NCBI RefSeq assembly: GCF_014192375.1
Contig: NZ_JACHXV010000005.1
Span: 1-64,000, forward strand
Direction: 5' to 3'
Source: Endobacter medicaginis
GTDB lineage: Bacteria > Pseudomonadota > Alphaproteobacteria > Acetobacterales > Acetobacteraceae
DNA: 64,000 nt
Below are positions 43,863-62,018 of this stretch, one piece after another (position 1 is the stretch's first letter; each line of letters opens with the position of its first letter). The translations under genes were made by a program, and so were the position numbers. The notes below the pieces were generated by a model. That model did not search any database and was not told the origin of the DNA. It worked only from the letters and a program-made list of their open reading frames with translations.

Positions 43863-45917
43863 TCATTCGGCCGCGATATTCGTGGCGGTTTCGATGGGGA
43901 TAACAGCGACCTGTTTCTGATGACCGTCGGTCAAACCAGCAGTTCGCAATGCTTCGGGCAGCCAGCCGGAGCCGTCCAGCAACTGCTCGGCCTCACTGGC
44001 CATGTCCATTTTCTTGAGATGCGCAATGCGGGCCGCTGCCTCATCGCCGCGTGCTTCGCGTACGGCTTCGAGGATACGCGCCTTGGTGACACGGCCGAGA
44101 TAGTTCTCCACCGTCGGCTGCCATCCCGCTTCGGCCGGATTGAGTTGGAGCACTGTCGCCAGCCGGCCGGCTCGCGCCAGGCGCTCCCTGACGCTACGTG
44201 CCAGAGACGGACCATGGGACGATTCATGCAGCGCGTTGACGCCAAAAGACAGGCAATGCGCCAGTAGGGCCAGGCGACTGGTATCATCCAACCCGTCGAG
44301 CCACTGCCAGAGTGCATCCTCGTCATCGGGAAGATCATGCTTCCAGCCCTCGTTGCGCTGGCGAAGTTCATGAGCGGGAACACTGCCCGGCATGTCTGGC
44401 GAATGCACCCGCAGCGGGATTTCCCGGACATAGGCTTCCAGGCAATCCGCGCCCGACACCTGCCAGTAGAGATCGCGCACCAGCGTGTGGAGCAGTTCGG
44501 TCAACGCGATGTGCGGATTGCCGGCGAACGCGTCACGCAGGGCCAGCGTGCGCCAGGCCGTCAACTCTGTCAGCAGGCGGTCGGGCAGCGGCTTCAGCCC
44601 ATCTTCCTCTTCGGGCTCGGTGCCGGGGGCGCCTTCCGTCCCAGTTCCTTCGACGTCATCACCCGCGCCGTGATGGACGACCGCGTCATCATCACCCTCG
44701 GGTGTATCCGGGCCGTCCTCGGGCTCCGCCGGCACATCTTCAGGGCGGACGAAGCCCCGTTCGACCAGCAGCGTGGCATCAGTATCCAGGCTGATAAAGG
44801 CCCCTGCCCGGACCACCTCCGCCGGATCGAAGGACACAGGGCGTTCTTCCAGCGCCTCAATAGCCTGTTCGATCTCCCCCAGCCGGGTATCGACGTCGTC
44901 GGGGAACTCATCGGCCTGTGCGTATTCCGCCTCGATGGCTTCCTGCTCGCTGTGCAGAGCGGTTAGACGGGCGGCTTCTTCTTCCGAGAGCACAACCGGC
45001 GAGCCTTCAATCCTCGCGAAGCCCCGCGTGTGTCCCCACGGGAAGGACAGCGCCGTCTCGACCCACTTCCAGCCTTCGGCGCGGATGTCATCGGCCGCCC
45101 CAGCCAATTTGTCCATCACCAGCCGGTCGAGGAGGGTCGGATCCTGCAGCCAGCCGCCGTCATCGGCCTCGAACAGGTCACGCATGACATGGCCACCGGC
45201 AGCGAGATAGGCATCCAGCCCGACGAAGCGCACGCGGCGATCCGATGCGCGCACGGTTTTTTCCGTCAGCATGCGGCGGATCAGATAGGGCTCGCGGTTA
45301 TGGCTCTGGGCGATAATCTCCCAGACCTGCTCCTGACGGGCATGGTCATCACTGATGGAAAACGCCATGAGCTGATCGAGCTTCATGCCGTCCTGCTCGT
45401 AAATCTCGAGCAGTTTGTCGGACACGGTCATCAGGCGCAGGCGCTGTTTGACCACGGTGGGCACGACGAAGAACGCGGCGGCGATCTCGTCCTCGGACAT
45501 GCCCTTCTCCAGCATGTCCCGAAAGGCACGAAACTGGTCCAGCGGATGCAGCGCCACGCGCTGCACGTTCTCGGCCAGGGAATCATCCTCGGCGAGAATG
45601 GCCGATCCGGCCTCGCGCACGACACAGGGCACCGGGGCAGTCTTGGCCAGTTTCTTCTGCTTGACCAGCAGTTCGAGCGCGCGGAAGCGACGGCCGCCAG
45701 CCGGCACCTCGTAGGAACCTGTCTCCGTCCCATCATCGTTCAGAACAGGGCGTACGTTGAGGCTCTGGAGCAGCCCGCGACGTTCGATGTCGCGGGCCAG
45801 TTCCTCGATCGACAGGCCGGCCTTCACACGCCGCACATTGGACTGCGACAGCACCAGTTTGTTGAAAGGGATATCACGGGACGCATTGAGAGCGATTTTC
45901 TGGATGGCGCTCGCCAT
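43863..45917 (-). CDS. parB: ParB/RepB/Spo0J-family partition protein
   Basis: The 684-residue protein has the ParB nuclease-like N-domain (PFNKLVLSQSNVRRVKAGLS; EVPAGGRRFRALELL; LAEDDSLAENVQRVALHPLD) and the helix-turn-helix (MSEDEIAAAFFVVPTVVKQR). A long acidic middle (EPEDGPDTPEGDDDAVVHH) and a helical C-terminal half follow, making it about twice the length of a simple ParB. It may bind a centromere or act as a nuclease. It is 11 kb from parA. A hairpin GGCCCTG-N8-CAGGGCC at 43806-43827 follows the stop but has no T-run. Confidence 0.85.
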   Translation of the reverse strand: MASAIQKIALNASRDIPFNKLVLSQSNVRRVKAGLSIEELARDIERRGLLQSLNVRPVLNDDGTETGSYEVPAGGRRFRALELLVKQKKLAKTAPVPCVVREAGSAILAEDDSLAENVQRVALHPLDQFRAFRDMLEKGMSEDEIAAAFFVVPTVVKQRLRLMTVSDKLLEIYEQDGMKLDQLMAFSISDDHARQEQVWEIIAQSHNREPYLIRRMLTEKTVRASDRRVRFVGLDAYLAAGGHVMRDLFEADDGGWLQDPTLLDRLVMDKLAGAADDIRAEGWKWVETALSFPWGHTRGFARIEGSPVVLSEEEAARLTALHSEQEAIEAEYAQADEFPDDVDTRLGEIEQAIEALEERPVSFDPAEVVRAGAFISLDTDATLLVERGFVRPEDVPAEPEDGPDTPEGDDDAVVHHGAGDDVEGTGTEGAPGTEPEEEDGLKPLPDRLLTELTAWRTLALRDAFAGNPHIALTELLHTLVRDLYWQVSGADCLEAYVREIPLRVHSPDMPGSVPAHELRQRNEGWKHDLPDDEDALWQWLDGLDDTSRLALLAHCLSFGVNALHESSHGPSLARSVRERLARAGRLATVLQLNPAEAGWQPTVENYLGRVTKARILEAVREARGDEAAARIAHLKKMDMASEAEQLLDGSGWLPEALRTAGLTDGHQKQVAVIPIETATNIAAE

Positions 45918-46914: not shown

Positions 46915-47697
46915 TTAATGGTGCTTATACCATCCATACCCTCGAATATTGTTCCATGCATCGGTGGTATGGCAGGCATAGCAATGCTCCACCGGGGCAT
47001 CCTGATGCGCGACGTGCTGCGAAATCATTTTGAAATGCATCATGTAATGGCTGGGCGGCGCCTTGTGACAGGCGTTGCAATCCGTCGATATCTGATCGGC
47101 GGGATGTTCGAACGCGGCGATCAGCCATGTCTTGGTGGAGTGACAACTCGCGCAATCAGGACCAAAGCGGGCGCGATGAGGATCCACGTTGGAGTGACAG
47201 CTTGCGCAATTCAGATGGAGAACGGCATCACGGTCAAGTCGATGATCAGTCGGAATAGCCGCAGCGCTTCCCGGAATCGGCGACGCTCCAACCAGCCCGG
47301 CCGAGCGAAGTTGCGCAACGGTGTCTGACCAGAAATCCGCCCTCGTCAATGCACTATGATCCATCACGGTCATATGTGGCCGCTCACCGTGCTCCACATG
47401 ACAGGACGTACATTGCGTCGCCGCGACATGAAACCGGGTGGATTGCTTGTCGGCGAACGACGCCAGAGAATGACAGGTCACGCAGTTATTGGTCACCACA
47501 CCTGTGAAAGGCCTGTGACATGTCTCGCACTGGCCCGCGATAAACTGGTGCGCTTTCGAGATCGGTCCGGGATTCACCAACCCTTCCCAACCAGGAACTG
47601 CGTTACTGCCGGAACGATGCACGGCAAGGGGCACAACCAGTCCGACGATCAGAGCCGCAAGCGCAAAGACCGTATAGAGTATGACAGCGGGCTTCAT
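46915..47697 (-). CDS. Seven-haem c-type cytochrome, membrane-anchored
   Basis: The ATG at 47697 (MKPAVILYTVFALAALIVGL) starts a single N-terminal anchor. The 260-residue product then has seven CxxCH sites: CETCH, CVTCH, CTSCH, CASCH, CASCH, CNACH and CYACH. Additional histidines (HVEHGERPH, HPADQ, HYMMHFK) can serve as distal ligands. It resembles multihaem electron-transfer proteins of the NapC/cytochrome c3-like kind in being a periplasmic wire. It is the last gene of the reductase operon, overlapping the preceding gene by four bases. Confidence 0.88.
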   Translation of the reverse strand: MKPAVILYTVFALAALIVGLVVPLAVHRSGSNAVPGWEGLVNPGPISKAHQFIAGQCETCHRPFTGVVTNNCVTCHSLASFADKQSTRFHVAATQCTSCHVEHGERPHMTVMDHSALTRADFWSDTVAQLRSAGLVGASPIPGSAAAIPTDHRLDRDAVLHLNCASCHSNVDPHRARFGPDCASCHSTKTWLIAAFEHPADQISTDCNACHKAPPSHYMMHFKMISQHVAHQDAPVEHCYACHTTDAWNNIRGYGWYKHH

Positions 47698-48425
47698 AGC
47701 CACCTCAGCCCGTAATACAGGCCTGACCAGATATGCAGAATCAGCAGAAAATAGAGGATGACCACAAGGATGACGTGAATCTTGCGCCAACGCCCGAACA
47801 GTGCGTTCGCCACCCTCTCCGACCTGACCGCATACTCAACATCGGCCAGCGCCGAGGCAATCGTGGCCTCGCGATCCGATGTACCCCGCGTACCGGGATA
47901 GGCCGAGGTCAGAAAAAGGCGCTGGACGATATTATGGGGCACATCCGGCGTCTCGGGCATCAGATGCGCCACCCCGGCATCTGCCAGAGACGTGCGCAGT
48001 TGGGCCAGTTCCTGGGTGCGACCGCGCAATCCGCGCCCGATCTGGATCAACATGTAGCGCCCGACATAGCCACTAATAGCGAGGACGAGCATGATGCCGG
48101 TTAGCGAGATCCCCATCGGGCTATCGAATTTATGGGCGGCGTGGATCAGGCCCAAAATGGGTGCAAGGACGCCAGCATAGATATGCACCGACAGAAGGGT
48201 TCGGCTCTCGACACGCGGCGCGAAATAACGATGCACGACGGGAATGCGTTTGCCCGCTACGTAAATCAGCGGCACCAGCATCAGGATGGCGGCGCAAATG
48301 CCAATCAGGCTGCCAGCCAGACTCCCAGGAAAGCGTGGCGCGACATGCACCAGAAAGCCCAGCGGGAACAGCACCAGCAGGACGACCAGGGCGCCGACAA
48401 TGATTTCGCTGCGCTCCTGCATCAC
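47694..48425 (-). CDS. b-type cytochrome-like integral membrane protein
   Basis: The 243-residue protein has about five membrane helices. Histidines sit in the helices where haem b ligands are expected: H in SVHIYAGVLAPILGLIHAAH and in KIHVILVVILYFLLILHIWS. A cytosolic loop lies between helices 4 and 5 (about residues 130-210). It would pass electrons between the reductase at 48422 and the periplasmic multihaem cytochrome. No named family is certain; ferric-reductase-like or cytochrome b561-like is the best comparison. Confidence 0.7.
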   Translation of the reverse strand: MMQERSEIIVGALVVLLVLFPLGFLVHVAPRFPGSLAGSLIGICAAILMLVPLIYVAGKRIPVVHRYFAPRVESRTLLSVHIYAGVLAPILGLIHAAHKFDSPMGISLTGIMLVLAISGYVGRYMLIQIGRGLRGRTQELAQLRTSLADAGVAHLMPETPDVPHNIVQRLFLTSAYPGTRGTSDREATIASALADVEYAVRSERVANALFGRWRKIHVILVVILYFLLILHIWSGLYYGLRWL

Positions 48426-50557
48426 GCCTCCACGACCAGCGGACCACCCGTGGTCTTCGCCTGACAGGCCAGGATGAAACCCTTGGCCTTGTCAGCCGGA
48501 TCGAGCCCATCCTCGACCGCCATCGTCACCTCACCTTGCTGCAGGTGAGTCGTACACATGCCGCAGATACCGGATCGACAGGAGGATGGAATATTGACAC
48601 CTGCCGCATCAGCCGCGTCGAGAACCGTTTCATCCAGTTGCAACGGAGCCGATTTCCCTGAAGTGGAAAACGTAATGGTCGTTGCGGCAGGCGTAACGGC
48701 CGGGGATGAGGGGGCCGCCACAGGCCCGACCGCAGGTTCGGCCTTCATCGCGGCTGGTCCGAATGCCTCGCTATGAACATTGGCTTCCGGCACAGCGAGA
48801 TCCGTCAATAACGCTCTCATGCTTGCCATCATCCCGGGTGGGCCGCAGACATGGATACGCCGGTTTGTGAGATCTGGCACCGATTGCTGAAGCAGTTCCT
48901 TCGTGATGCGCCCTTCCGGCCCCGACCACTCTGTCCCCGGCGACCGCCGCATGGTGGCAATAACGTGCAGTTTGTCATTGCGACGTTCCAGCCACTCGAT
49001 TTCCTGGCGAAACACATAGTCGATGCTGGCATGAGCGGAATAGACGAAGTAGATCTCGCCAGGCCAGACGATATCGGTCAGGTATCTCAGGACCGCCATC
49101 ATCGGTGTGATGCCTACGCCGCCGGACAGCAGGACGATCGAGTCTGCCTCGTCACCCGTAAAGGTGAACATACCCGATGGACCCGCGATCTTTAAAAGAT
49201 CACCCTCTTTGACCGTGTCGTGCAGGTAGCGCGAGACCAACCCATGTTCCTCGCGTTTGATCGTTAGTTCGAGATGTTCGACCTGCCCCGGCGACGATGC
49301 GATCGTATAGGACCGGCTCGCGGGCTTGCCAGACGTCGGCTCGATGGTGAGTTGCACGAACTGGCCGGGTTTGAAGTCAAAGGGAATCCGCCCCCCATCG
49401 GCCGGAACTAGATAGAACGTCACGATCGCCGGTGTCTCCCGAATGATCCGGGCCACTTTCAGACCGCCACGCCAGAGGCCGTGTCGAGGTGCGCCGACGA
49501 TCGGAGTGGCCGTTCCACCGCCTGGTCCCGGTACAGGGGGAGGCGGCGGAACAGGAGGTGTTGGACCGCCGCCGGTCGACGATGGTGGCGTGGGCGGGAC
49601 CGTTGGTTTCGGTGCGAATGCCGTGGTGGTCCTGAGAATCTCTTGCACGCGATGCAACCGCAGGACCTGCAAGATCAGCAGAGCGATCGATACCAGGATC
49701 AGGATCGTCATGAACACCAGGTGGGCCGGCGTCAATCCGAAAAACAGGCCGTTCTGCTGGCTCGCCGCGACTGTCGGCAGACCCATCTGTGCCGTGAACC
49801 AGTTGAATGCCACCATTTGAGGATTCACGAGGCCGGTCGCGGCCGCGCGCGCGGCCATTCCGCTATCGAGCAACGCAACGCCTTCATGGAGATGCTGGCT
49901 GGATCGACGCATCGTCTCCCACGACAGGGACTGAGCGGCATCGACCGATGCGGCGCCGACTTCGCGAAGACCGTCCTGAAGCCTCTGTGCCGCAATATCG
50001 GCCAGCATCTGACGTTCGGCGTCGGTCAGCTTCGGATGCGTCATCATGAAAGTATAAAGCGGCGTGCGACCGCGCGCTCCGCAACAACCCGCGTCGGCCT
50101 TGTCTGCTCCGGGAACCGCACTCAATGCCTGCCCAGCCTGAGGCAGCATGCGGCTCATCATATCGCCCTGCACCGCCGGCCCGGATGGTGGCGCACCGGG
50201 GTTCCCCGCCGCGCCCATGCCAGGGTGATGGCTTGCATGCTCGTCACCACCCATCGACATCATGCCGTCCATGTCGGACATACTTGAGTCGGGTCGAGCG
50301 GTGGTCGTCTCCATTCCGCCGGACGACTCGGCGCCATGACCGGCATCCCGGGGCGCTGCCATCGGCCCATCGTCTTCCGGCTGATCCCGCCGCAGCGCCA
50401 GCGAAGGTGGCGGGCTGCCTGTCGTAGGCCCCGTCATAGTGCCGCTGGACATGGCCGGAACGGCGGGAGACTCACCCGGTGCCTGAGCGAATCCCTCGGA
50501 CATGCTGACGAGCAGCGTCATGATCACGACACTCACGCTCAAAAAGACACGCCTCAT
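48422..50557 (-). CDS. Membrane-anchored FAD/NAD(P)H reductase with 2Fe-2S ferredoxin domain
   Basis: The 711-residue protein has a signal sequence, a periplasmic Met/His/Cys-rich region (SSMSDMDGMMSMGGDEHASH; GCCGARGRTPLYTFMMTHPK) to about residue 275, one membrane helix (LVFMTILILVSIALLIL), a Pro/Gly-rich linker, a ferredoxin-NADP reductase module (RSYTIASSP for FAD, GGVGITPMM and CGPPGMM for NAD(P)H) and a C-terminal plant-type ferredoxin with CRSGICGMC plus a fourth Cys in LACQAK. It takes electrons from cytosolic NAD(P)H and offers a metal-binding sensor or acceptor domain in the periplasm. It leads an operon with the b-type and seven-haem cytochromes. Confidence 0.82.
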   Translation of the reverse strand: MRRVFLSVSVVIMTLLVSMSEGFAQAPGESPAVPAMSSGTMTGPTTGSPPPSLALRRDQPEDDGPMAAPRDAGHGAESSGGMETTTARPDSSMSDMDGMMSMGGDEHASHHPGMGAAGNPGAPPSGPAVQGDMMSRMLPQAGQALSAVPGADKADAGCCGARGRTPLYTFMMTHPKLTDAERQMLADIAAQRLQDGLREVGAASVDAAQSLSWETMRRSSQHLHEGVALLDSGMAARAAATGLVNPQMVAFNWFTAQMGLPTVAASQQNGLFFGLTPAHLVFMTILILVSIALLILQVLRLHRVQEILRTTTAFAPKPTVPPTPPSSTGGGPTPPVPPPPPVPGPGGGTATPIVGAPRHGLWRGGLKVARIIRETPAIVTFYLVPADGGRIPFDFKPGQFVQLTIEPTSGKPASRSYTIASSPGQVEHLELTIKREEHGLVSRYLHDTVKEGDLLKIAGPSGMFTFTGDEADSIVLLSGGVGITPMMAVLRYLTDIVWPGEIYFVYSAHASIDYVFRQEIEWLERRNDKLHVIATMRRSPGTEWSGPEGRITKELLQQSVPDLTNRRIHVCGPPGMMASMRALLTDLAVPEANVHSEAFGPAAMKAEPAVGPVAAPSSPAVTPAATTITFSTSGKSAPLQLDETVLDAADAAGVNIPSSCRSGICGMCTTHLQQGEVTMAVEDGLDPADKAKGFILACQAKTTGGPLVVEA

Positions 50558-50634
50558 GGTTTCTCCAACACGCCATCATCCTCGGCAAAGCCCATACCGG
50601 CCCGCTTTCCGGATGTCGTCAGGGCACGGGTTAT

Positions 50635-50649
50635 TACCCTACAGGGGTA
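50635..50649 (-). promoter_or_regulatory. CsoR-like operator upstream of the reductase operon
   Basis: TACCCTACAGGGGTA. It shares the core ACCCTACAGGGG exactly with the site between csoR and the copper ATPase, and has the ACCC...GGGG symmetry of CsoR-type operators. It sits 78 bp upstream of the reductase ATG. Confidence 0.7.
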
Positions 50650-50662
50650 TGGCATATTTTCC

Positions 50663-50676
50663 TTGATCTCGATCAA
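50663..50676 (-). promoter_or_regulatory. FNR/FixK-type box
   Basis: Perfect TTGAT-CTCG-ATCAA, the FNR/Anr/FixK consensus. On the minus strand it lies about 45 bp upstream of a plausible start site after TAATAA (50636-50631), the usual place for FNR-type activation, and next to the CsoR-like site. Confidence 0.65.
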
Positions 50677-50691
50677 TTATCCCAGCGGCAT

Positions 50692-51255
50692 CTATTGTCG
50701 GGGCATCGGCATATCCATGTCGTGATGCATATGATGTCCGCCAGCTGCTCCTGCCTGGGCGACCAGCGCCTGGTAGTCGGAACTGTTCATTCCCGGAAGC
50801 TTTTTGAGAAACGCGACAATGTTCCAGAGATCATCATCACCATGATCCGCCCAGGACGGCATGCCCGACATCTTGATGCCATGCTTGAGGATCCAGAACA
50901 GTTCGCCTTGCGTATAGCGTTGCGCCACATCATTCAAAACCGGCGGCTTCGGATACATCCCCTCCGCCATATCCTCGGCCTCGACGCCCGGCGCGGAATG
51001 ACAGGAGGCGCAATGCGTCGAAAAATGCGATGCACCGCCGACGAGCCGTGCCTGCGTCTCAAGATCGACAGGTGTGGTAATGCCCTCGGCGTGATGCCGG
51101 ATTGAATGGAAGCGTGCCGTTTCCAGAACACGATAGGTCAGCCGCCAATGCGGCGAGGTGGCGCCTACATCATACAGACCACCGAAAACGACGGCCGTTC
51201 CCGCGCCGATCCCGACCAGCAGAATGCCGGCGAGACTCCAGGCTAATCTTTTCAT
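50692..51255 (-). CDS. Mono-haem cytochrome c with His/Met tail
   Basis: The ATG at 51255 (MKRLAWSLAGILLVGIGAGT) gives 187 residues with an N-terminal signal/anchor, one CASCH haem site near residue 83 and a distal-type methionine in GIKMSGMPSWADHGDDDLWN. The C-terminus (GGHHMHHDMDMPMPRQ) is a copper-like His/Met cluster. It lies between the Met-rich protein and the reductase operon. It may link the multicopper oxidase or the reductase chain to periplasmic copper, which is inference. Confidence 0.82.
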   Translation of the reverse strand: MKRLAWSLAGILLVGIGAGTAVVFGGLYDVGATSPHWRLTYRVLETARFHSIRHHAEGITTPVDLETQARLVGGASHFSTHCASCHSAPGVEAEDMAEGMYPKPPVLNDVAQRYTQGELFWILKHGIKMSGMPSWADHGDDDLWNIVAFLKKLPGMNSSDYQALVAQAGAAGGHHMHHDMDMPMPRQ

Positions 51256-51320
51256 GCGTGCCTCCCTGGGCATGTCCAGGGGCGACGCTTATGACGCCGC
51301 CCCGCTCCATCAGGAACCGA

Positions 51321-51731
51321 TCAGCGCTGATGAACCGCGTCGGGCATGCTCTGCGGGCCCATCGGCATTTTCATGCCGTCGCCCATGTCGCCGCAGCCCA
51401 TTTTCATCTTTTTATCCGATGGTGCCATTGCCTGACCGTTCGGCATGGCCATGCCCTTCATCTTCATACATCCCCCCATCTTTCCTTTCATTTTCATGCC
51501 TTTCTCTGCCCCCTTCATGCCGGATCCGGGCATGCCGTCCATTTTCATCTTGTCGTGGTCCATTCCTGACATGCCTGACATACCCTGCATTCCGGACATA
51601 TCCTGGCCCTGCGGCTGGGCTGGTGCCGGAACCGGTGTCTGGGCATGCGCAACTGAGACCGTGGCCAGGAGTGCTACCAGAAGGGCCGATGATCTGAAAT
51701 TAATGGTCAGCATTGGTCTTTTCCTCATCAT
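51321..51731 (-). CDS. Met-rich periplasmic copper-binding-like protein
   Basis: The 136-residue protein has a signal peptide ending in AHA, then a mature part in which about two dozen of roughly 105 residues are methionine (SGMQGMSGMSGMDH; KGMKMKGKMGGCMKMKGM), with two cysteines and few other hydrophobics. Such sequences bind Cu(I) in bulk like CopC/PcoE or CopM-type sponges. It lies between copB and the cytochrome c in the copper operon. Confidence 0.75.
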   Translation of the reverse strand: MMRKRPMLTINFRSSALLVALLATVSVAHAQTPVPAPAQPQGQDMSGMQGMSGMSGMDHDKMKMDGMPGSGMKGAEKGMKMKGKMGGCMKMKGMAMPNGQAMAPSDKKMKMGCGDMGDGMKMPMGPQSMPDAVHQR

Positions 51732-51793: not shown

Positions 51794-52600
51794 TCAGAAC
51801 CACGTCCTGATCCCGAAGGTGAAATTCAGGTCATGGACACGCTCATTCCTTGAACGCGCCATGTCGGCGGCCTGACCGAACGTGCCGGAGTAACTCACGC
51901 CGATATAAGGCGCGAATTTCCGATGCCATTCGTAGCGAAGCCGCAATCCCGTATCGATATCGGACAGCCCGGTTCCGACCCCGCGCGCACGATCGGACGC
52001 GGAATAGAAGTTCATCTCTACCTGGGGTTGGAGGATCAGGCGATTGGTCAGCAGAATGTCGTAGGAACCTTGCAGACGCCCCGCAGCGCCTCGGTCACTG
52101 AAATAGGCCGTGGCCTCCACATTGAAGAAATATAGCGCCAGTCCCTCGACCCCGATCGCGCCCCAGGCCCGTGTGGGGCCGTTGTCAATATCGAGACGCA
52201 CGCCAGTCTGGACATCGAAATACCGGGAGATGGCACGATCATAGAGGGCCTCATGATCTCCATCACCGAACTTGCCGTTTGTGCCGACCGTGCCTTCGGA
52301 TTTCAGCCAGAGCTTGTCGTAGTCGGTGCCGAACCAAGCCTGCCCATCGTAACGGAACTGCCCGCCATCGGCACCAAAGCGCGCCTCGAACTGGTCGAGC
52401 AGCGCATGCACATAGATGTTATGGTCCATGACCGGCTGGATGCCGTTGACATAGACCACGGGCGCGGGAGCCGAGGCGGTCTGCGCTTCCTGGGTTCCTT
52501 CGCTCTGGCGTGCCGGGACTGACTGGGCGCGTCCCGTGCCAGGTACCGCGGTAGCCAGTCCAGCGGCAAGGACCGTGCCACCTATCAGACCCCGGATCAC
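51794..52600 (-). CDS. copB: Copper resistance protein B (outer membrane)
   Basis: A GTG start at 52600 overlaps the copA stop (GTGA) and gives 268 residues; the upstream in-frame ATG lies inside copA. A signal peptide (to about GRAQS) is followed by a CopB beta-barrel: VMDHNIYVHALLDQFEARFG, GTDYDKLWLKSEG and the C-terminal strand LNFTFGIRTWF ending in Phe. CopB is thought to sequester or export copper at the outer membrane with CopA. Confidence 0.88.
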   Translation of the reverse strand: MIRGLIGGTVLAAGLATAVPGTGRAQSVPARQSEGTQEAQTASAPAPVVYVNGIQPVMDHNIYVHALLDQFEARFGADGGQFRYDGQAWFGTDYDKLWLKSEGTVGTNGKFGDGDHEALYDRAISRYFDVQTGVRLDIDNGPTRAWGAIGVEGLALYFFNVEATAYFSDRGAAGRLQGSYDILLTNRLILQPQVEMNFYSASDRARGVGTGLSDIDTGLRLRYEWHRKFAPYIGVSYSGTFGQAADMARSRNERVHDLNFTFGIRTWF

Positions 52601-54420
52601 GACACCACCACCGTGCGGAACATGCCCACCTCCATGTGGTAGAGCAGGTGGCAGTGATACGCCCACAGCCCGGGTTCGTCCGCCGTGACCAGGTAACTCA
52701 GCCGCTCACCCGGCTTGACGGTAATCGTGTGCTTGTAGGGTCGGCAGTCACCCTGCCCATTTTCCAGTTCGCTCCACAATCCATGCAGATGGATTGGGTG
52801 CTCCATCATCGTGTCGTTGATCAGGACGAAGCGCACCCGCTCGCCCAAAGTCAGACGAATCGGTTCCGCTTCCGAGAACTTCTTGCCGTCAAATCCCCAG
52901 ATGAAGCGTTCCATGCTGCCGGTCAGGTGCAGGGTGATCTCGCGCGACGGCGGGCGTGGGTCCGCGCCCGGGATCGTGGCCCGCAGATCGGCATAGGTCA
53001 GAACGCGGCGACCATTATTCTCCAGCCCGTCGCCCGGCTCCGCCAGCCGGTTGATCGGCATCATGGCGACACTCTGCACCGCGACGCCGGGCTTCAGCTC
53101 TGTTTTATGCCGCGGCGCAGCCGCCGTGCCCGGCATATCCATCGCGGCGGCTCCGGGCCTGTTGGCCTGCTTCATATCCATGTGATCCTTGTCCATGCCG
53201 CCGCTGGCAGGGGCATCACCGGGCTTCCCCGGCGGACTCCCCATCTCCATGCCTGCCATGCCGCCCTTCATGTCCATATTCCCCATGCCCATGTCGGTCA
53301 TGGTGCGCAGCGGGCGCGGGTCCATGGGGGGAACCGGCCCGGCAAGGCCCGGACGGGTGGCGAGTGTGCCGCGCGCGTATCCGGTGCGATCCTCGGCCTG
53401 CGCAAAGACCGTGTACGGTCCATCGGCGGTGGGCTCGACAATCACATCGTAGGTTTCTGCAGGTCCGATGCGGAATTCATCGACAGGGATGGGCTCCACG
53501 TCATTGCCGTCGGCCTGAACGACGGTCATCGTCAGGCCGGGAACCCGCACGTCGAACAGCGTCATCGCCGACGCATTGATGAAGCGCAGGCGTATGCGCT
53601 CGCCCGGTCGGAACAGGCCAGTCCAGTTTGCCCCGGGAGACTGGCCGTTGATCAGGTAGGTGTAGATGATGCCCGACACATCCAGAATGTCGGTCGGTGC
53701 CATGTTCATGGCACCCCATTGCAGGCGATCCCGGATCGTCGCACCCAGCCCTTGCCGATGCGCGTCACGGAAGAACGTGCCCACCGTACGCTGGCGGAAA
53801 TTGTAGTAATCGCTCTGGAATTTGAGATTTGAGACGATGTCCTCGGGATCGACGTCGGTCCAGTCGGACAATACCATCACATAATCGCGGTCGAAATGCT
53901 GCGCGTAACCGTCTCTCGGGTCGATGATCAGAGCCCCATACAGGCCCGTCTGCTCCTGGAAGCCGGAATGGCTGTGATACCAGTAAGTGCCGCTCTGATG
54001 CAGCGGGAAGCGATAGGTGAACGTGTCACCCGGCGCGATCCCGCCAAAGCTCAGACCGGGCACGCCATCCATGTGGGCCGGCACCCGGAGGCCGTGCCAG
54101 TGGATCGAACTGGGCTCATCCAACCGGTTGGTGACGTTCAGTTCGACCGTGTCATCCTGACGCCAGCGCAGGATCGGCGCGGGCGTGGAGCCGTTCACAC
54201 CCACCGCGTGCATGCGCGCACCGGTGATATTGATCGGTACAGAACCGATCGTAAGGTCGAAACGGGTACCAGGCAGCGGGTCGGGCCGCCCCGACGCCGG
54301 TGTATAGACCGAAGCGTAGGCGCTCGCGCTGCCCTGCGGGAGGGCCAGCGCCGCTCCCCACAGGCCCGTCCCGACGACGAAACGGCGGCGCGTGATCGCG
54401 CTCCGTCCCGCAAGGGATCG
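52597..54420 (-). CDS. copA: CopA multicopper oxidase; signal peptide present but no canonical start codon
   Basis: The oxidase domains are intact: IHWHGLRVPAHMDGVPG, TYWYHSHSGFQEQTGLYG, a Met-rich loop (GMGNMDMKGGMAGMEMG), HPIHLHGLWSEL and WAYHCHLLYHMEVGMF supply the type 1, 2 and 3 copper ligands. Upstream of the first ATG (54213) the same frame encodes a Tat signal peptide (ITRRRFVVGTGLWGAALALP, then a SASA-type cleavage region) but holds no ATG, GTG or TTG back to the in-frame stop at 54468-54466. The end given here includes the signal. Translation may start at ATA/ATC codons near 54421-54429, or the gene is damaged. Confidence 0.8.
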   Translation of the reverse strand, partial: RSLAGRSAITRRRFVVGTGLWGAALALPQGSASAYASVYTPASGRPDPLPGTRFDLTIGSVPINITGARMHAVGVNGSTPAPILRWRQDDTVELNVTNRLDEPSSIHWHGLRVPAHMDGVPGLSFGGIAPGDTFTYRFPLHQSGTYWYHSHSGFQEQTGLYGALIIDPRDGYAQHFDRDYVMVLSDWTDVDPEDIVSNLKFQSDYYNFRQRTVGTFFRDAHRQGLGATIRDRLQWGAMNMAPTDILDVSGIIYTYLINGQSPGANWTGLFRPGERIRLRFINASAMTLFDVRVPGLTMTVVQADGNDVEPIPVDEFRIGPAETYDVIVEPTADGPYTVFAQAEDRTGYARGTLATRPGLAGPVPPMDPRPLRTMTDMGMGNMDMKGGMAGMEMGSPPGKPGDAPASGGMDKDHMDMKQANRPGAAAMDMPGTAAAPRHKTELKPGVAVQSVAMMPINRLAEPGDGLENNGRRVLTYADLRATIPGADPRPPSREITLHLTGSMERFIWGFDGKKFSEAEPIRLTLGERVRFVLINDTMMEHPIHLHGLWSELENGQGDCRPYKHTITVKPGERLSYLVTADEPGLWAYHCHLLYHMEVGMFRTVVVS

Positions 54421-54505
54421 TATTGAGATGAATAATAGTCCGCAAAAGAGAGAAGGCGGAGCCGGTCATAGGTCCATGACCAGCCCTGAGACTGTCAGAA
54501 CAGAA

Positions 54506-54913
54506 TCAGGCCATCTCTCTGGGCGGTGGCAGGGCCGGCGCGAACCCATGACCGACGATGCGATCCGAACGAGACAGGCCGAAAGGTGCCGTAACACCTG
54601 AGTAATCAAACGCCCTGGTCACGGAGGGCGGCATCAGCCAATTGGCGACGCAGGCACCCTGGGCGCAGCAATCGCCGCAATGATGAGATGGATGATGGTC
54701 GTGGCACGGTTCATGATTGCAATGTGCGGTCGTCGCATCCGTATGGGATGGCATCTGCATCCCTGGCATGTCAACCATCGGTTGGGTAACCAAAGCAACT
54801 GTAGAAGACAACGTGGCGGCATGACCCGGCATGACGGACGCCAGCATCAGTCCCACCTGCAGAAGCAGGCAGGCCAGCAACCGTCCCAACCGTGTCGCGC
54901 CGATTTCTTGCAC
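54506..54913 (-). CDS. Small exported Cys/His protein of the copper operon
   Basis: A GTG at 54913, three bases after the csoR stop, opens 135 residues. After a signal peptide (RLLACLLLQVGLMLASVMPG) come Met and His pairs (DMPGMQMPSHTD) and a metal-binding-like cluster HCNHEPCHDHHPSHHCGDCC plus AQGAC. The CxxC-type end resembles DUF2946-like copper-operon proteins, but that match is uncertain. It lies between csoR and copA and may deliver or sense copper in the periplasm. Confidence 0.6.
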   Translation of the reverse strand: MQEIGATRLGRLLACLLLQVGLMLASVMPGHAATLSSTVALVTQPMVDMPGMQMPSHTDATTAHCNHEPCHDHHPSHHCGDCCAQGACVANWLMPPSVTRAFDYSGVTAPFGLSRSDRIVGHGFAPALPPPREMA

Positions 54914-54915
54914 AT

Positions 54916-55188
54916 CTACCCCGTCATCTTGCTGACCGTTTCGATCAGTTCCCCGATCTTTTCCTGACGTTCCACCGGATCGCCGGATTCGATCGCCTCC
55001 ACGACGCAGCCCGCGATATGTTCGCGCAGAACAAGCCCCTCGAGCCGATGCAACGCCGCCTTGGCGGCCCGAAGCTGAAGCAGAACATCCACGCAATAGC
55101 GGTCTTCGTCCACCATTTTCTGGATGCCACGCACCTGACCTTCGACCCGTTTCAGGCCCTGCGAAATCTTTACCCGTGACTGCCTCAT
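54916..55188 (-). CDS. csoR: CsoR-type copper-sensing repressor
   Basis: The ATG at 55188 gives 90 residues; the longer frame is the shadow of the ATPase gene. The all-helical fold starts [20 protein letters not shown] and has the copper ligand set Cys-His-Cys: [10 protein letters not shown], then LREHIAGC. This is the CsoR signature, not the FrmR one. Cu(I) binding releases the operator. It faces the copper ATPase across the site at 55194. Confidence 0.9.
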
Positions 55189-55193
55189 TGCAC

Positions 55194-55212
55194 TATACCC
55201 TACAGGGGCATA
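55194..55212. promoter_or_regulatory. CsoR-like operator between csoR and the copper ATPase
   Basis: TATACCCTACAGGGGCATA with the core ACCCTACAGGGG identical to the site at 50636-50647. It directly precedes the csoR start and lies 65-83 bp upstream of the ATPase start, allowing one repressor to control both directions. Confidence 0.75.
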
Positions 55213-55276
55213 CCATGGAGCGCAAGCGATTATGGCATGTCTGGCGCCGCGTGGCGGCCACAAACAAGGGGACCTC

Positions 55277-57655
55277 ATGACGAACGACAATACAGCAGCT
55301 TGCGCGTCCCATCTCCATGGAGAGGGTCCCACCCCGGCAGCGACCGGAGTTAAGACGCGCCCGGTCAAGGATCCCGTGTGTGGCATGACAGTCGACCCCG
55401 CGACGGCGACGCATCATGCCGACCATGATGGCCAGACCTGGTATTTCTGCAGCGCGCACTGTCAGACAAAGTTCGAAGCCGACCCCTGTCATTACCTGCA
55501 CAAGGCGGACACGACGCCCATCAAGTCTCAGCCCAAACGGGTCGGGGTGATCTGGACCTGCCCGATGCACCCTCAGATCCGACAGGATCACCCCGGCTCC
55601 TGCCCCATCTGCGGCATGGCGCTGGAACCGGAGGAGCCATCCGACGCCGACACGCCTAACCCGGAACTCGTGGATTTCAGCAAGCGCCTGTGGGGGGCGA
55701 GCATATTGGCGGTCCCGCTCGTTATCATCGCCATGGCGGCGGATATGGGAGGGCTGGCATTTCTCGATGGCGGCCTGACGAACTGGATTCAGTTGGCGCT
55801 CACGGCGCCAATCGTGCTGTGGGCCGGCTGGCCGTTCCTCGAACGCGGCTGGATGTCGCTCCGCACCCGGCATCTGAACATGTTTACGTTGATTATGCTG
55901 GGCGTCGGCGCAGGCTTTCTCTATAGCATCGCCGCGACAGTGGCCCCTGGCCTGTTCCCTGCTGCCTTCCGCATGCATGACGGGTCGGTCCCGGTCTATT
56001 ACGAAGCCGCCGGTGTTATCGTGGCCCTGGTGTTGGCCGGGCAAGTCCTGGAACTGCGCGCCCGCGCCCGTACCAGTCGCGCCATTCGCGCGCTGCTGGA
56101 TCTCGCACCGAAAATCGCACACCGGGTCGGCGCGCTGGATCGGGAGGACGACGTACCGCTGGCCCAGATCGTGCCCGGCAATCGGCTCCGCATCCGGCCG
56201 GGGGAAAGCATCCCGGTGGACGGCACCGTCATGGACGGGCGCTCCAGCGTGGACGAAGCCATGCTGACAGGAGAGCCAGCACCTGTCGCCAAGGGACCGG
56301 GTGACAAGGTGACGGGTGGAACCATCAACGGCACCGGCAGCCTGCTGATGACAGCCGAGGCCGTTGGCTCGGACACGATGCTGGCCCGGATCGTCAGCAT
56401 GGTGGCGGCTGCCCAGCGTACGCGCGCACCGATCCAGGCGGTGGCGGACCGGGTCTCCGGCTGGTTCGTGCCGCTGGTCGTGCTTGTGTCCCTTCTGACC
56501 TTCGTCGTCTGGCTTCTGGTCGGTCCGCAACCGCGCTTCGGACACGCACTGCTGAACGCCATTGCGGTCCTGGTGATCGCCTGCCCGTGCGCGCTGGGCC
56601 TGGCCACTCCGATGTCGATCATGGTGGGCATGGGGCGCGGGGCGCGGGCCGGCGTGCTGGTTCGCAACGCCGAAGCCCTGCAGGCGCTGGATACGGTCGA
56701 TACGCTGGTGATCGACAAGACCGGCACCGTAACCGAAGGCAAGCCCCGGCTGATCGCGACCGAAACATCAGGTGCATGGGATTCCAACGTCGTCCTGCGG
56801 CTGGCGGCATCACTGGAAACACAATCTGAGCATCCGCTGGCCCAGGCACTGGTCGCCGCGATGACGGCGCAGGGCCTTCAGGCCGCGCCGGTCGGGGATT
56901 TCGCGTCTCAGACCGGCCTGGGCGTGACCGGCACCGTCGACGGCCATGCCGTCGTCGTCGGAAACCAAGCCCAGATGCGGCAGCAGGGCATCGATGCGTC
57001 GGCATTGATCCCTGTCGCGGATTCCCACCGGGCGGAGGGCGCGGGCGTCATGTTCGTCGGCGTCGACGGACAGGCCGCTGGGCTGCTGGTCGTGGCCGAT
57101 CCGCTGAAGACCGACGCGAAGGAGACCATCGCGGCACTGCACGCAGCCGGCATGCGGATCGTGATGCTGACGGGCGACAATGCCCGGACTGCGGAAGTCG
57201 TCGCCCGGCAGGCGGGAATCGACGAGGTACATGCCGACCTCAAGCCTGAGGACAAGGCCGCGATCATTCGTGACATGCAACAGAAGGGAGCCCGTGTCGC
57301 CATGGCGGGCGACGGAGTCAACGACGCGCCGGCCCTGGCCACCGCCGATATCGGAATCGCCATGGGCACAGGCACCGATGTCGCAATCGAAAGCGCCGGG
57401 ATGACACTGGCACAAGGCAGCCTCGCCGGATTGGTACGCGCCCGCCGCCTGGCACAGGCGACGATGCGCAACATCCGGCAGAATCTGGCATTTTCTTTCC
57501 TGTTCAATGGGATCGGCATCCCACTTGCCGCAGGCGTACTGTATCCTGTCTTTGGCCTTACGCTGTCGCCCATGTTCGCGGGAGGCGCGATGGCCCTGTC
57601 CTCCCTGGCCGTCGTGACAAACGCACTGCGGCTCAATGCCCTGAGACTTCGGTGA
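55277..57655 (+). CDS. copA: Copper P-type ATPase with YHS and heavy-metal-binding domains
   Basis: The ATG at 55277, behind AGGGGACC, gives 792 residues; the earlier ATG at 55232 is less likely. No HMA domain is present. Instead the N-terminus has a YHS-type domain ([20 protein letters not shown], then [15 protein letters not shown]) and a heavy-metal-binding domain ([20 protein letters not shown]). Then come TGEP in the actuator, the CPC motif in [33 protein letters not shown] and [10 protein letters not shown]. This is the P1B-1 copper-exporting type. It diverges from csoR. Symbol follows ATPase usage and is distinct from the oxidase copA. Confidence 0.92.
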
Positions 57656-58858: not shown

Positions 58859-59371
58859 TTAAAATTCTGTTTCGGCGCGGTGCTCGGAAGCCTGGCCATA
58901 CAAGTCGGCTGTTTTCAGGATGATGAGACGCCCCATTGCGGTGCGGACTTCGGCGATGTCGATATGAAAATAGCCGACCGGATAAGTCTTGAACTTCGAG
59001 CGCCTGGGCTTGTCGCCCTTGGTGTCGGGCAGACGGCTGATTCCATGGCGCTGAAGACAACGATGCAATGAAGAGCGCGTCAGATGCGGGATCGTCGCCT
59101 GTAGCGCGTAAAGGCAGTCGTCCAGGGGCAATAATGTATGGCGGCGGAACGCCACGACGATGCCCTCCTCCTCGATCGACAGGACCGTCGAAAGAGGAGC
59201 CTTCGGGCCAGTGCGTCGATCCGCTGTATCGGGCCGTCCCTTCGATTTGGCGACTGTCTTCGGGTTGACCCCGTGGCGTTCCGCCAGAGCTCTCAGGCTC
59301 TCTTGACTATGCTGTATCGCTCGACGGACTGCCGTTGTCGTCGTGGCGCATCCGTGGTGAACCTGGCCCAT
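58859..59371 (-). pseudogene. IS481-type transposase, truncated before the catalytic core
   Basis: The ATG at 59371 (MGQVHHGCATTTTAVRRAIQ) starts a transposase with helix-turn-helix (LRALAERHGVNPKTVAKSKG) and the conserved AFRRHTLLPLDDCLYALQAT and YPVGYFHIDIAEVRTAMGRL. The last piece (IILKTADLYGQASEHRAETEF) no longer follows the family, and the rest of the DDE domain is missing. It is therefore a broken insertion element. An upstream end sequence is seen at about 59440. Confidence 0.75.
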
Positions 59372-59445
59372 AGCGCATCCTTCCACTCTCGTGAAAATAA
59401 TGCACCATCAAAACCCGGGACTAAACATCTAGGAAACCGCCTGCC
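58859..59445 (-). mobile_element. Remnant of an IS481-type insertion sequence
   Basis: The truncated transposase plus upstream sequence containing TAGTCCCGGGTTTTGATGGT (minus strand), which looks like the left terminal repeat of this group. The right end is absent; the break lies near 58860. Confidence 0.5.
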
Positions 59446-59516: not shown

Positions 59517-62018
59517 ATGAGCGGCCCTCTCCCTTTTCCCTCGCGCCAACCTAGCCAGAAAGCTCACCCCACCCGCGCCCGCGCGGGCAGGAGATGGCAG
59601 GGCGCGCTGGGCAAGGGGCTGGCAGGGCTGCTGGCGTGCGCGGGGCTCCCTCCCCTTGCTGCCGCCTGGGGGGCGGAAAGCGCGCCCGCCATCAGCGCGC
59701 ACAGCACGGCCAGCCTGATAAGCGCGTCCGATACCGCCAGCCCCGGCTCGTCCCTCCATGTGGCCCTGCGCCTGCGGCTCAAGCCCGGCTGGCACACATA
59801 CTGGCTCAACCCCGGTGATGCGGGAGACCCCGCGACCCTGCGCATAACCGCAACGGGCGCGTTAAGGGGCGAGGCGCAAACCATTGTCTGGCCCACGCCG
59901 CAGCGGATCAGGGACGCCTCCCTGATGTCCTATGCCTATACGGGCGATGTGGTGCTGCCAGTGGTGCTCCCAATGGTGCGCCCTGTGGAACCTTCAGCGG
60001 GACGTCCACCGGCGGCCCAGCCGGGGCAAACGCCCGACGGCCTGGGCGCGCAAGGGCTGACAACCCTTAGCGCCCACGCCAACTGGCTGGTGTGCGCACA
60101 GAGCTGTATTCCCGAGGAAGGAACATTCACGCTTACCCTGCCCGTGGGCGCGCCTCGCCCGTCCGCGCAGGTGGGGCTGTTTACACAGGCGGAGCAGCAT
60201 ACGCCCGTGCCCTCGCCCTACCCGGTGAGCATCAGCCCCACAGGGGTACTTGGCGTTCAGGGCAGGGAGTTGAACCGCCAGTCCGTCGCGCAAGCCTGGT
60301 TCATGCCGCAAGAGCGCGGGCGGATTGGGGAAGCCGCACCGCAAGCCCTGCTCTTTGGCCCCGAGGGCCTTGCCCTGCGCCTTGACCCCACGGCTGACTT
60401 TACGCCTGCAAAGCCGTTGTCGGGTATTCTGGTGCTCAAGGCCCCCGATGGGACGGAGCGCGCGCTGAGCGTGCGGGCCACCCCGCTGCCCCCCCCAATG
60501 GCCAGTGAGCCCTCCATTGCGCCATCGGCCCGGCCTGCCACCGAGCCCAACACAGGAACCACCTCCGGGACCGCTGCCGAAGCCGCCGCTGGAACCGCCA
60601 CAGGAGGGACCACAGCGGGGACCGCAACGGGAACCGCCATGGGGGCGACCAGCCCAGACCCGGCAGGGGACTATCCGGCAGGGGAGCAGCCGATGGCGGG
60701 CCATCTGGCAGCGCTCGGCAATGGCGTGCCGGGGCCGCCCCATGGCGGGGGGGAAAGTGCGTCTGGCCTGTTCCGCCTTGTTGTACTGGGGTTCCTGGGT
60801 GGGCTGGTGCTGAACCTGATGCCCTGTGTTTTTCCCATTCTGGCCATGAAGGCGCTGGCCGTCGCCCGCATGGGCCAGAGTGAGCGCCTGCACCAAAAGC
60901 AAAGCGCCATCAGCTATGCCGCAGGGGTTATTCTGGGCTTTACCGCCCTTGGCGCGCTGGTCATGGCGCTGCGCCTGGGCGGGGCCGCCACTGGCTGGGG
61001 GTTCCAGTTCCAGTCCACGATGTTCGTGGGCATGATCACATGGCTGATCTTCGCCATGGCGCTTAACCTGCTGGGGGTGTTTGTCTTCCTGCCGCCCGCC
61101 TTCGCCCTATCCTCCTCCCCCCGGCACGGGCTGGTGCATGACCTGCTGACCGGGCTGCTGGCCGTGGCCGTGGCCTCGCCCTGCACCGCGCCGTTCATGG
61201 GGGTGGCCATTGCCGGGGCGCTGGCCGGTCCCCCGGCAACCGGACTGGTCATTTTCGCAGCACTTGGCATCGGGCTTGCCGCCCCTTACGTGCTGCTGGC
61301 CTTTTGCCCCGCGCTGGCCAAAAGCCTGCCCCGCCCCGGCGCATGGATGGACTACCTGCGCCAGTTTCTGGCTTTTCCGTTACTGGGCACCTGCGTGTGG
61401 CTGCTGTGGGTCGCAGCGGTGGAGGGTGGGGTCACAACGGTTTTGCTTGTATCATCGGGCATGGTGTTCCTGGCCTTTGCGGCATGGGTTTACGGCATTA
61501 CCCAAAGGCGCCCGCTCCATGCGGGCCATGACCGGGACTGCACGGCCCTGTATGGCGTGGCCCTGCTGGGGCTTTTGGCGGCCATGGCGCTGCTGCCCGC
61601 CCTGCTAGAGCAGGCGCCGCAGGCTGGCGCCAACCCGCCCTCCGCCTCGGGTCCGGGCCTTTCAGCCCTCCCCTCCGGCACGGAGGCTTTTTCCGAGGAG
61701 CGACTGCGCGCCCTGCACAATGCGGGCAAACCCGTGTTTGTGGACATGACGGCGGCATGGTGCATCACCTGCCTTGTCAATGAGCGCATGGCGCTCAACA
61801 CACAGGCGACACAGGCAGCCATGGCACGCTATGGCGTAATAACGCTCCGGGGGGACTGGACACAGCGCAACCCCGCCATAACCGCGTTTTTGCGCAAACA
61901 TGGGCGCGATGGCGTGCCATTCTACCTGTTTGTGCCCGCACATGGCGCGGCAGTGGTGTTGCCACAGATACTGACGCCCGGACTGGTCATAGGCACCATA
62001 ACGCCCCACGACAAATAA
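59517..62018 (+). CDS. DsbD/ScsB-like thiol-disulfide transmembrane reductase
   Basis: The 833-residue protein has a signal segment, a large periplasmic N-domain (LKPGWHTYWLNPGDAGDPAT; NWLVCAQSCIPEEGTF), an Ala/Thr/Gly-rich linker (GTATGGTTAGTATGTAM), eight membrane helices with the cysteines NLMPCVFPILAMK and VAVASPCTAPFMG, and a C-terminal thioredoxin domain with AAWCITCL near residue 752. It carries electrons from cytosolic thioredoxin to the periplasm. The layout fits the ScsB branch linked to copper tolerance. Its base composition is richer in G/C than the neighbours. Confidence 0.85.
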   Translation: MSGPLPFPSRQPSQKAHPTRARAGRRWQGALGKGLAGLLACAGLPPLAAAWGAESAPAISAHSTASLISASDTASPGSSLHVALRLRLKPGWHTYWLNPGDAGDPATLRITATGALRGEAQTIVWPTPQRIRDASLMSYAYTGDVVLPVVLPMVRPVEPSAGRPPAAQPGQTPDGLGAQGLTTLSAHANWLVCAQSCIPEEGTFTLTLPVGAPRPSAQVGLFTQAEQHTPVPSPYPVSISPTGVLGVQGRELNRQSVAQAWFMPQERGRIGEAAPQALLFGPEGLALRLDPTADFTPAKPLSGILVLKAPDGTERALSVRATPLPPPMASEPSIAPSARPATEPNTGTTSGTAAEAAAGTATGGTTAGTATGTAMGATSPDPAGDYPAGEQPMAGHLAALGNGVPGPPHGGGESASGLFRLVVLGFLGGLVLNLMPCVFPILAMKALAVARMGQSERLHQKQSAISYAAGVILGFTALGALVMALRLGGAATGWGFQFQSTMFVGMITWLIFAMALNLLGVFVFLPPAFALSSSPRHGLVHDLLTGLLAVAVASPCTAPFMGVAIAGALAGPPATGLVIFAALGIGLAAPYVLLAFCPALAKSLPRPGAWMDYLRQFLAFPLLGTCVWLLWVAAVEGGVTTVLLVSSGMVFLAFAAWVYGITQRRPLHAGHDRDCTALYGVALLGLLAAMALLPALLEQAPQAGANPPSASGPGLSALPSGTEAFSEERLRALHNAGKPVFVDMTAAWCITCLVNERMALNTQATQAAMARYGVITLRGDWTQRNPAITAFLRKHGRDGVPFYLFVPAHGAAVVLPQILTPGLVIGTITPHDK

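Follow-up and report, generated by a model that had tools for sequence, protein, structure and literature searches.

The RED-CYB-CYC7 operon

The first 64,000 nucleotides of contig NZ_JACHXV010000005.1 of Endobacter medicaginis (GCF_014192375.1), hereafter the window, carry a copper cluster and, downstream of it on the same strand, three overlapping or abutting genes for a reductase (RED), a membrane protein (CYB) and a seven-haem cytochrome (CYC7) (Table 1). The cluster comprises csoR, a CopL-like gene, copA, copB and the genes for a Met-rich protein and a cytochrome c; the coordinates of the three genes were as described in the initial annotation of this DNA. Here we describe this gene set, its conservation, its linkage to copper genes and the two sites in its promoter, and we discuss its possible role in the reduction of periplasmic copper.

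RED was predicted to consist of a signal peptide, a Met/His-rich periplasmic segment with a helical domain (about residues 26-275), one transmembrane helix (about 277-300) and a cytosolic FAD/NAD(P)/2Fe-2S reductase. All three Pfam matches of the reductase part were above cut-off, in agreement with the FAD and 2Fe-2S cofactors proposed before. Among complete relatives, the Met/His domain carried the H-x2-HH motif in 81/81 and MMxxM in 74/81. This domain had originally been described as rich in Met, His and Cys; the Met/His part holds, and the Cys residues were found not to be conserved.

In CYB, two H-x13-H pairs, H81/H95 in helix 3 and H217/H231 in helix 5, were invariant among 24 diverse sequences, the helices being taken from the AlphaFold2 (AF2) model. 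H27 and H98, in loops on the periplasmic side, were also invariant. Following the positive-inside rule, we read H81 and H217 as lying near the cytosol and H95 and H231 near the periplasm; from the invariant ligands, helices 3 and 5 are predicted to form two haem sites with bis-His ligation. Relatives of CYB gave weak matches to DUF4405, Ferric_reduct and Ni_hydr_CYTB. Comparison by hhalign of CYB with the FRD/MsrQ-like proteins of its own genome gave no match, and a PDB sequence search with CYB and CYC7 gave nothing useful. The earlier designation as a b-type membrane protein draws on the conserved histidine pairs and not on a curated family match. For CYC7, a longer open reading frame with a TTG start (to 47790) is unlikely because the ATG at 47697 overlaps the stop codon of CYB.

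Conservation of the three-gene unit

RED, CYB and CYC7 are one conserved unit, beyond chance. Scanning of the GTDB genome collection gave 293 CYB relatives, the best 80 of which were kept, representing 79 loci; together with ten plasmid loci, a set of 89 was obtained, spanning Acetobacteraceae, Sphingomonadales, Caulobacterales, Hyphomicrobiales, Beta- and Gammaproteobacteria and Planctomycetota. The order RED-CYB-CYC7 was observed in 89/89 loci, and so were the seven CXXCH motifs, in line with the prediction of CYC7 as a seven-haem cytochrome. The overlap between CYB and CYC7 was 4 nt in 85/89. Strong CYB matches (E < 1e-60) were obtained in seven genomes of a phylum-wide sample of 399, and strong CYC7 matches (E < 1e-80) in exactly these seven. 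A synteny search had been suggested with the initial annotation; across the 89 loci the three genes occurred as a set and not independently.

The distribution of the unit is patchy (16/299 family genomes), and about five diverged copies were noted in one Acetobacteraceae genome, G165 (L154, L159, L162, L169, L019). Proteins of DUF1622 (in 17/33 non-redundant loci) and, in the distant clade, of DUF3141 recur as neighbours of the unit (e.g., L034 13438-13881 and L038 15390-17144).

Linkage to copper genes

We then counted loci of about 20 kb (within about 10 kb of the unit) that hold at least one of copA, copB, csoR, and genes for Cu-ATPase, Csp1-like or DUF411 proteins. A copper gene was found in 85/89 loci, in 30/33 of the non-redundant loci (CYB clustered at 90%) and, among more distant loci, in 17/22. 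None was found at nine loci of generic relatives with CYB-like and multihaem genes (L176, L177, L179-L182, L184-L186). Against this 0/9 control, Fisher p values were 4.5e-10, 4.9e-7 and 9.9e-5, respectively, for loci that are not fully independent. CopA (TIGR01480) passed its cut-off in no more than 30 of the 142 alphaproteobacterial genomes sampled, so that a 20-kb window taken at random would seldom contain it; the generic loci are the stronger, internal control. A Csp1-like gene, by a weak match, is among the neighbours of the unit.

The CYC7 motif PPSHxMxHFxM followed the same division, being present in 89/89 relatives, 20/22 distant copper-clade loci and 0/11 generic loci. RED was readable at two generic loci (L184, L185), and both proteins lack the Met/His domain. 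Copper context and the CYC7 motif therefore go together, as generic relatives have neither, and the RED domain behaves likewise where readable.

At five generic loci (L176, L177, L180, L181, L186) the CYB relative adjoins large multihaem cytochromes, and at L177 also a probable outer-membrane barrel; these are possibly extracellular electron-transfer clusters in non-classical hosts. On a Glaciecola plasmid (L042 3915-19325), the unit lies behind an FNR box and directly upstream of a [NiFe]-hydrogenase operon. Other partners are thus possible, and in Glaciecola CYC7 may be common to the hydrogenase and the NAD(P)H module.

An FNR box and a CsoR-type site in the operon promoter

The 134-bp gap upstream of RED (50558-50691) holds an FNR box and a CsoR-type site. 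The FNR box is perfect; no other perfect one occurs in the window, and the 4.7-Mb genome has four in all, of which a second is located just upstream of an ompW-like gene, near fnr itself; ompW is a classic FNR target in E. coli. By alignment of the promoter from the window, ten relatives and a plasmid copy of Acetobacter aceti, TATAGT was found as the putative −10 sequence in most copies, and therefore the FNR box is placed at −40.5/−41.5 and the CsoR site over the −10. This is the class-II FNR spacing. Two features of an FNR regulon are present, TTGATN4ATCAA near −41.5 and a genome-encoded FNR with an N-terminal Cys cluster and an E..SR recognition helix (ETVSR).

The 16-mer TACCCTACAGGGGYAT occurs at exactly two sites in the genome, the RED promoter and the divergent promoter of csoR and the P-type ATPase. 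The two promoters thus have the palindrome in common, a feature of a CsoR regulon. Its second half is less well conserved in several sister copies. In a divergent Komagataeibacter copy (L048) the promoter block TTGATyGAGATCAA..aAAAT.ATGCCATACCCC.GTA..GTAA is kept, with both flanks changed. A one-mismatch FNR box was found solely in the A. aceti plasmid copy (L033 10723-14000), the RED of which is broken into separate frames; its CYB and CYC7 stay open.

Beyond the acetic acid bacteria, Variovorax, Enterovirga and Glaciecola have perfect FNR boxes 70-85 bp ahead of the gene that opens the co-directional run with RED. Seven perfect boxes were observed in the 53 loci from outside the acetic acid bacteria (1.01 Mb), compared with 0.65 expected by simulation. 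In sphingomonads, no FNR box was detected at the loci, and the unit stands instead behind a MerR-family gene; a simple pattern found no MerR-type promoter dyads upstream of these units, and the neighbour allowed no assignment to CueR, ZntR or MerR. Oxygen control is therefore not universal. The FNR/FixK box and the CsoR-like operator first noticed in the window were both substantiated, the former by its retention in divergent acetic acid bacteria and the latter by the sequence shared with the csoR promoter. The proposed control by copper and oxygen gains support from the promoter comparison, except that its oxygen part does not extend to the sphingomonads.

Mobility and the surrounding copper cluster

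The window shares a 20.7-kb block around the unit, at an identity of 99.9% or more, with Brytella acorum, Acidomonas methanolica and Asaia bogorensis, and a related copy is carried on a conjugative plasmid of A. aceti. Recent transfer is clear from this near-identity across genera and from the plasmid copy. An IS481-type transposase fragment (58859-59386) and a ParB-like gene (43863-45917) flank the copper cluster, which fits a mobile island.

Within the cluster, the mono-haem cytochrome c gene upstream of RED is kept in every acetic-acid-bacterium copy. For copA, in-frame coding similarity extends upstream of the listed ATG (54213-54470). Where the start codon is expected, the window and A. 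methanolica (L044) read ATC and ten sister copies read ATG, and CopA translation may be reduced in the E. medicaginis genome. A frameshift in copA, suspected from the list of open reading frames, was ruled out, as the start codon is the sole difference. Just past the cluster, a sequence reading alone points to a DsbD/CcdA-like gene for thiol-disulfide exchange or cytochrome biogenesis (59517-62018).

Table 1. Positions of the operon, its promoter elements and the genes of the copper cluster in the window
Feature	Position	Strand	Evidence or remark
RED-CYB-CYC7 operon	46915-50557	minus	three genes, overlapping or abutting
CYC7	46915-47697	minus	260 aa; predicted N-terminally anchored periplasmic heptahaem cytochrome c; exactly seven CXXCH; PPSHYMMHFKM motif
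CYB	47694-48425	minus	243 aa; GTG start; five-helix membrane protein by alignments and AF2 (predicted local distance difference test score, pLDDT, 80; five long helices)
RED	48422-50557	minus	711 aa; Pfam NAD_binding_1 3.4e-17, Fer2 2.4e-15, FAD_binding_6 6.8e-13
CsoR-type operator TACCCTACAGGGGTATGGCAT	50635-50655		CsoR-like site TACCCTACAGGGGTAT from 50635; overlaps putative −10
Putative −10	50636-50641	minus	TAGGGT here, TATAGT in most sister copies; promoter alignment
FNR box TTGATCTCGATCAA	50663-50676		perfect TTGAT-N4-ATCAA; centre about −40.5/−41.5 from inferred start
Mono-haem cytochrome c	50692-51273	minus	Pfam Cytochrome_CBB3 1.6e-12
Met-rich small secreted protein	51321-51731	minus	from sequence; no family match
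copB	51794-52666	minus	Pfam CopB 6.3e-81
copA, multicopper oxidase	52597-54213	minus	from first internal ATG; TIGR01480 1e-243, profile positions 4-592
CopL-like small metal-binding protein	54506-54913	minus	weak match, NF033807 E 2.4e-4, under cut-off
csoR	54916-55188	minus	C...HxxxC copper ligands; PF02583 2.7e-26; RicR model 5e-20
Second CsoR-type operator	55196-55210		between csoR and P-type ATPase; sequence shared with operon promoter site
Cu(I) P-type ATPase	55232-57655	plus	divergent to csoR; TIGR01511 3e-170

Proposed role in copper reduction

RED, CYB and CYC7 would form one transmembrane electron-transfer complex. The domains and invariant ligands suggest both the cofactor chain and its direction: RED would oxidise cytosolic NAD(P)H via FAD and then the 2Fe-2S cluster, electrons would cross the membrane on two b-haems of CYB, and they would then enter the seven c-haems of the anchored CYC7 on the periplasmic side. 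The single helix of RED may stand in for the last (sixth) helix of one-piece ferric reductases. Electrons from CYC7 would reduce copper on Met/His sites (the EHxxHHP/MMxxM segment of RED and SHxMxHFxM of CYC7). This step would most likely convert Cu(II) to Cu(I), which Cu(I)-specific sinks such as Met-rich proteins, Cu(I) pumps or the Csp1-like protein could then take over, or it might possibly go on to Cu(0). The operon control, the neighbours and the Met/His motifs hint at copper as the acceptor, less strongly than the domains speak for the chain. At high copper CsoR would leave the promoter, and at low oxygen FNR would activate it; copper together with low oxygen would be the conditions where the O2-dependent copper oxidase CopA works poorly.

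In our judgement, there is an even chance that the operon encodes a copper-induced, low-oxygen-activated electron chain from NAD(P)H to the periplasm that reduces periplasmic copper. More tentative, and somewhat short of an even chance, is the fuller proposal of a previously undescribed enzyme: a periplasmic copper reductase, wired by haems and driven by NAD(P)H, that would respond to copper and low oxygen, yield Cu(I) and perhaps Cu(0), and have reached Proteobacteria and Planctomycetota on plasmids and islands as a low-oxygen counterpart of CopA.

Several observations weigh against copper reduction. Of the two ions, Cu(I) is the more toxic, and reduction of Cu(II) would therefore be useful solely if Cu(I) is captured or exported. 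No copper gene is nearby in L038, L039 and L091, nor within 10 kb of the Glaciecola plasmid unit. The structural side of the proposal is affected by the AF2 model of CYC7 (pLDDT 50), which was not used, by PF01794, matched by 9/24 CYB relatives (best E 0.014) and not by CYB of the window, and by the fold search with the CYB model, which gave no significant match (NOX5 at rank 39, E 1.6). Above all, caution is due because metal islands may have moved the unit and the copper genes together; in favour of a functional link are the 0/9 control and the copper operator in the promoter of the operon itself.

Among the alternatives to copper reduction, the leading one, which we regard as unlikely, is that, when copper is a stress, electrons go not to copper ions but to a periplasmic protein (a peroxidase or an oxidised copper protein) or to the repair of methionine or disulfides, MsrPQ-like in principle. 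The conserved cytochrome c upstream of RED in acetic acid bacteria favours it, and Met-rich copper proteins are oxidation targets. However, no constant reductase or peroxidase gene accompanies the unit across clades, its neighbours being copper sinks, pumps and regulators, and a single partner needs no seven-haem wire.

Slightly less probable again is an electron outlet or respiratory branch of general use at low oxygen, leading to the periplasm or outside the cell, whose genes travel on copper islands although the chain does not act on copper. Such a role would suit the generic relatives (CYB with multihaem c, sometimes RED) without copper genes, the FNR boxes, the neighbouring DUF3141 and alcohol-dehydrogenase genes and the mobile plasmids. 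It is at odds with the copper operator on the operon's own promoter and with the confinement of the CYC7 HxMxHxxM motif, and of the RED Met/His domain where readable, to the copper-associated clade. That the chain feeds an oxidase, as once suggested, found no genomic support.

Inward flow from a periplasmic donor (H2 via hydrogenase, or Cu(I)) to NAD(P)+ appears improbable. It draws on the hydrogenase adjacent to the Glaciecola unit and on hydrogenase genes in an Alteromonas copper-island plasmid region (PMC8478169). Hydrogenase linkage was observed in one sampled locus, however, versus copper-gene linkage in 85/89. Electron transfer from Cu(I) to NAD(P)+ is strongly uphill by textbook potentials. 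Cu(I) oxidation with NAD+ as acceptor was rejected on energetics, and with NAD(P)+ at the other end, thermodynamics make it unlikely that the chain oxidises copper, as suggested earlier. That the complex makes superoxide or peroxide as NOX enzymes do, or scavenges oxygen and so protects Cu(I), is highly improbable: the H-x13-H pairs of CYB, one in helix 3 and one in helix 5, are as in NOX/FRE proteins (PMC3591440), but the FNR boxes imply expression at low oxygen and a heptahaem partner is no NOX feature.

Comparison with known systems

If copper reduction is the role of the operon, a widespread, mobile, copper-inducible unit from NAD(P)H to the periplasm would raise the question of how bacteria manage the redox state of copper at oxygen levels that do not sustain copper oxidases. 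For annotation, genes now listed as 'hypothetical', '2Fe-2S protein' or 'cytochrome c3 family' would gain a name and clear sequence signatures. As first supposed, no description of the RED-CYB-CYC7 gene set was found in the open literature, subscription papers and preprints being outside the scope of the search. The report on the Alteromonas copper island with hydrogenase genes makes no mention of cytochromes or ferredoxin (PMC8478169).

In a 2020 review, the Fe-S protein CcoG is the only specific cupric reductase listed for bacteria; it contains a pair of tetranuclear clusters and takes part in the assembly of cbb3 oxidase (PMC7558416). The likeness lies in a membrane-bound Fe-S protein proposed for copper reduction; the cluster predicted for the operon is a plant-type 2Fe-2S one, RED, CYB and CYC7 match no 4Fe-4S family, and no sequence feature is in common. 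A 2026 paper adds the candidate CrpH of Bordetella pertussis, a single PepSY_TM protein that supports haem-copper oxidases (PMC13038864). CrpH is likewise a proposed haem-mediated periplasmic copper reductase, whereas RED, CYB and CYC7 form a three-gene unit linked to copper-resistance genes.

CbcL-type inner-membrane modules of Geobacter combine a b-type membrane part with a multihaem c and are quinol-fed, without an NAD(P)H reductase; by this general description they resemble the operon, which differs in having the reductase. GbcB/Hcr-type FAD-2Fe-2S reductases match the C-terminal half of RED (GbcB model E 3.8e-70, far below cut-off), and RED adds the signal peptide, periplasmic domain and transmembrane helix. 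Of MsrPQ, the gene for the molybdoenzyme MsrP was not found beside the unit; an MsrQ-like protein of this genome, with a molybdoenzyme-like neighbour, is encoded elsewhere (contig C27). The PcoAB/CopAB system is present in the same gene cluster with bona fide copA and copB, and RED, CYB and CYC7 fall outside the described operon.

The FRE/NOX proteins of the ferric-reductase-domain (FRD) superfamily pass electrons from NAD(P)H through flavin and two stacked b-haems, held by four histidines on two helices, to a metal outside. Unlike these, the proposed chain is split in two proteins, with five helices from CYB plus one from RED, and adds the 2Fe-2S cluster, the Met/His periplasmic domain and the seven-haem cytochrome; the likeness in histidines and layout makes CYB a candidate member of the superfamily.

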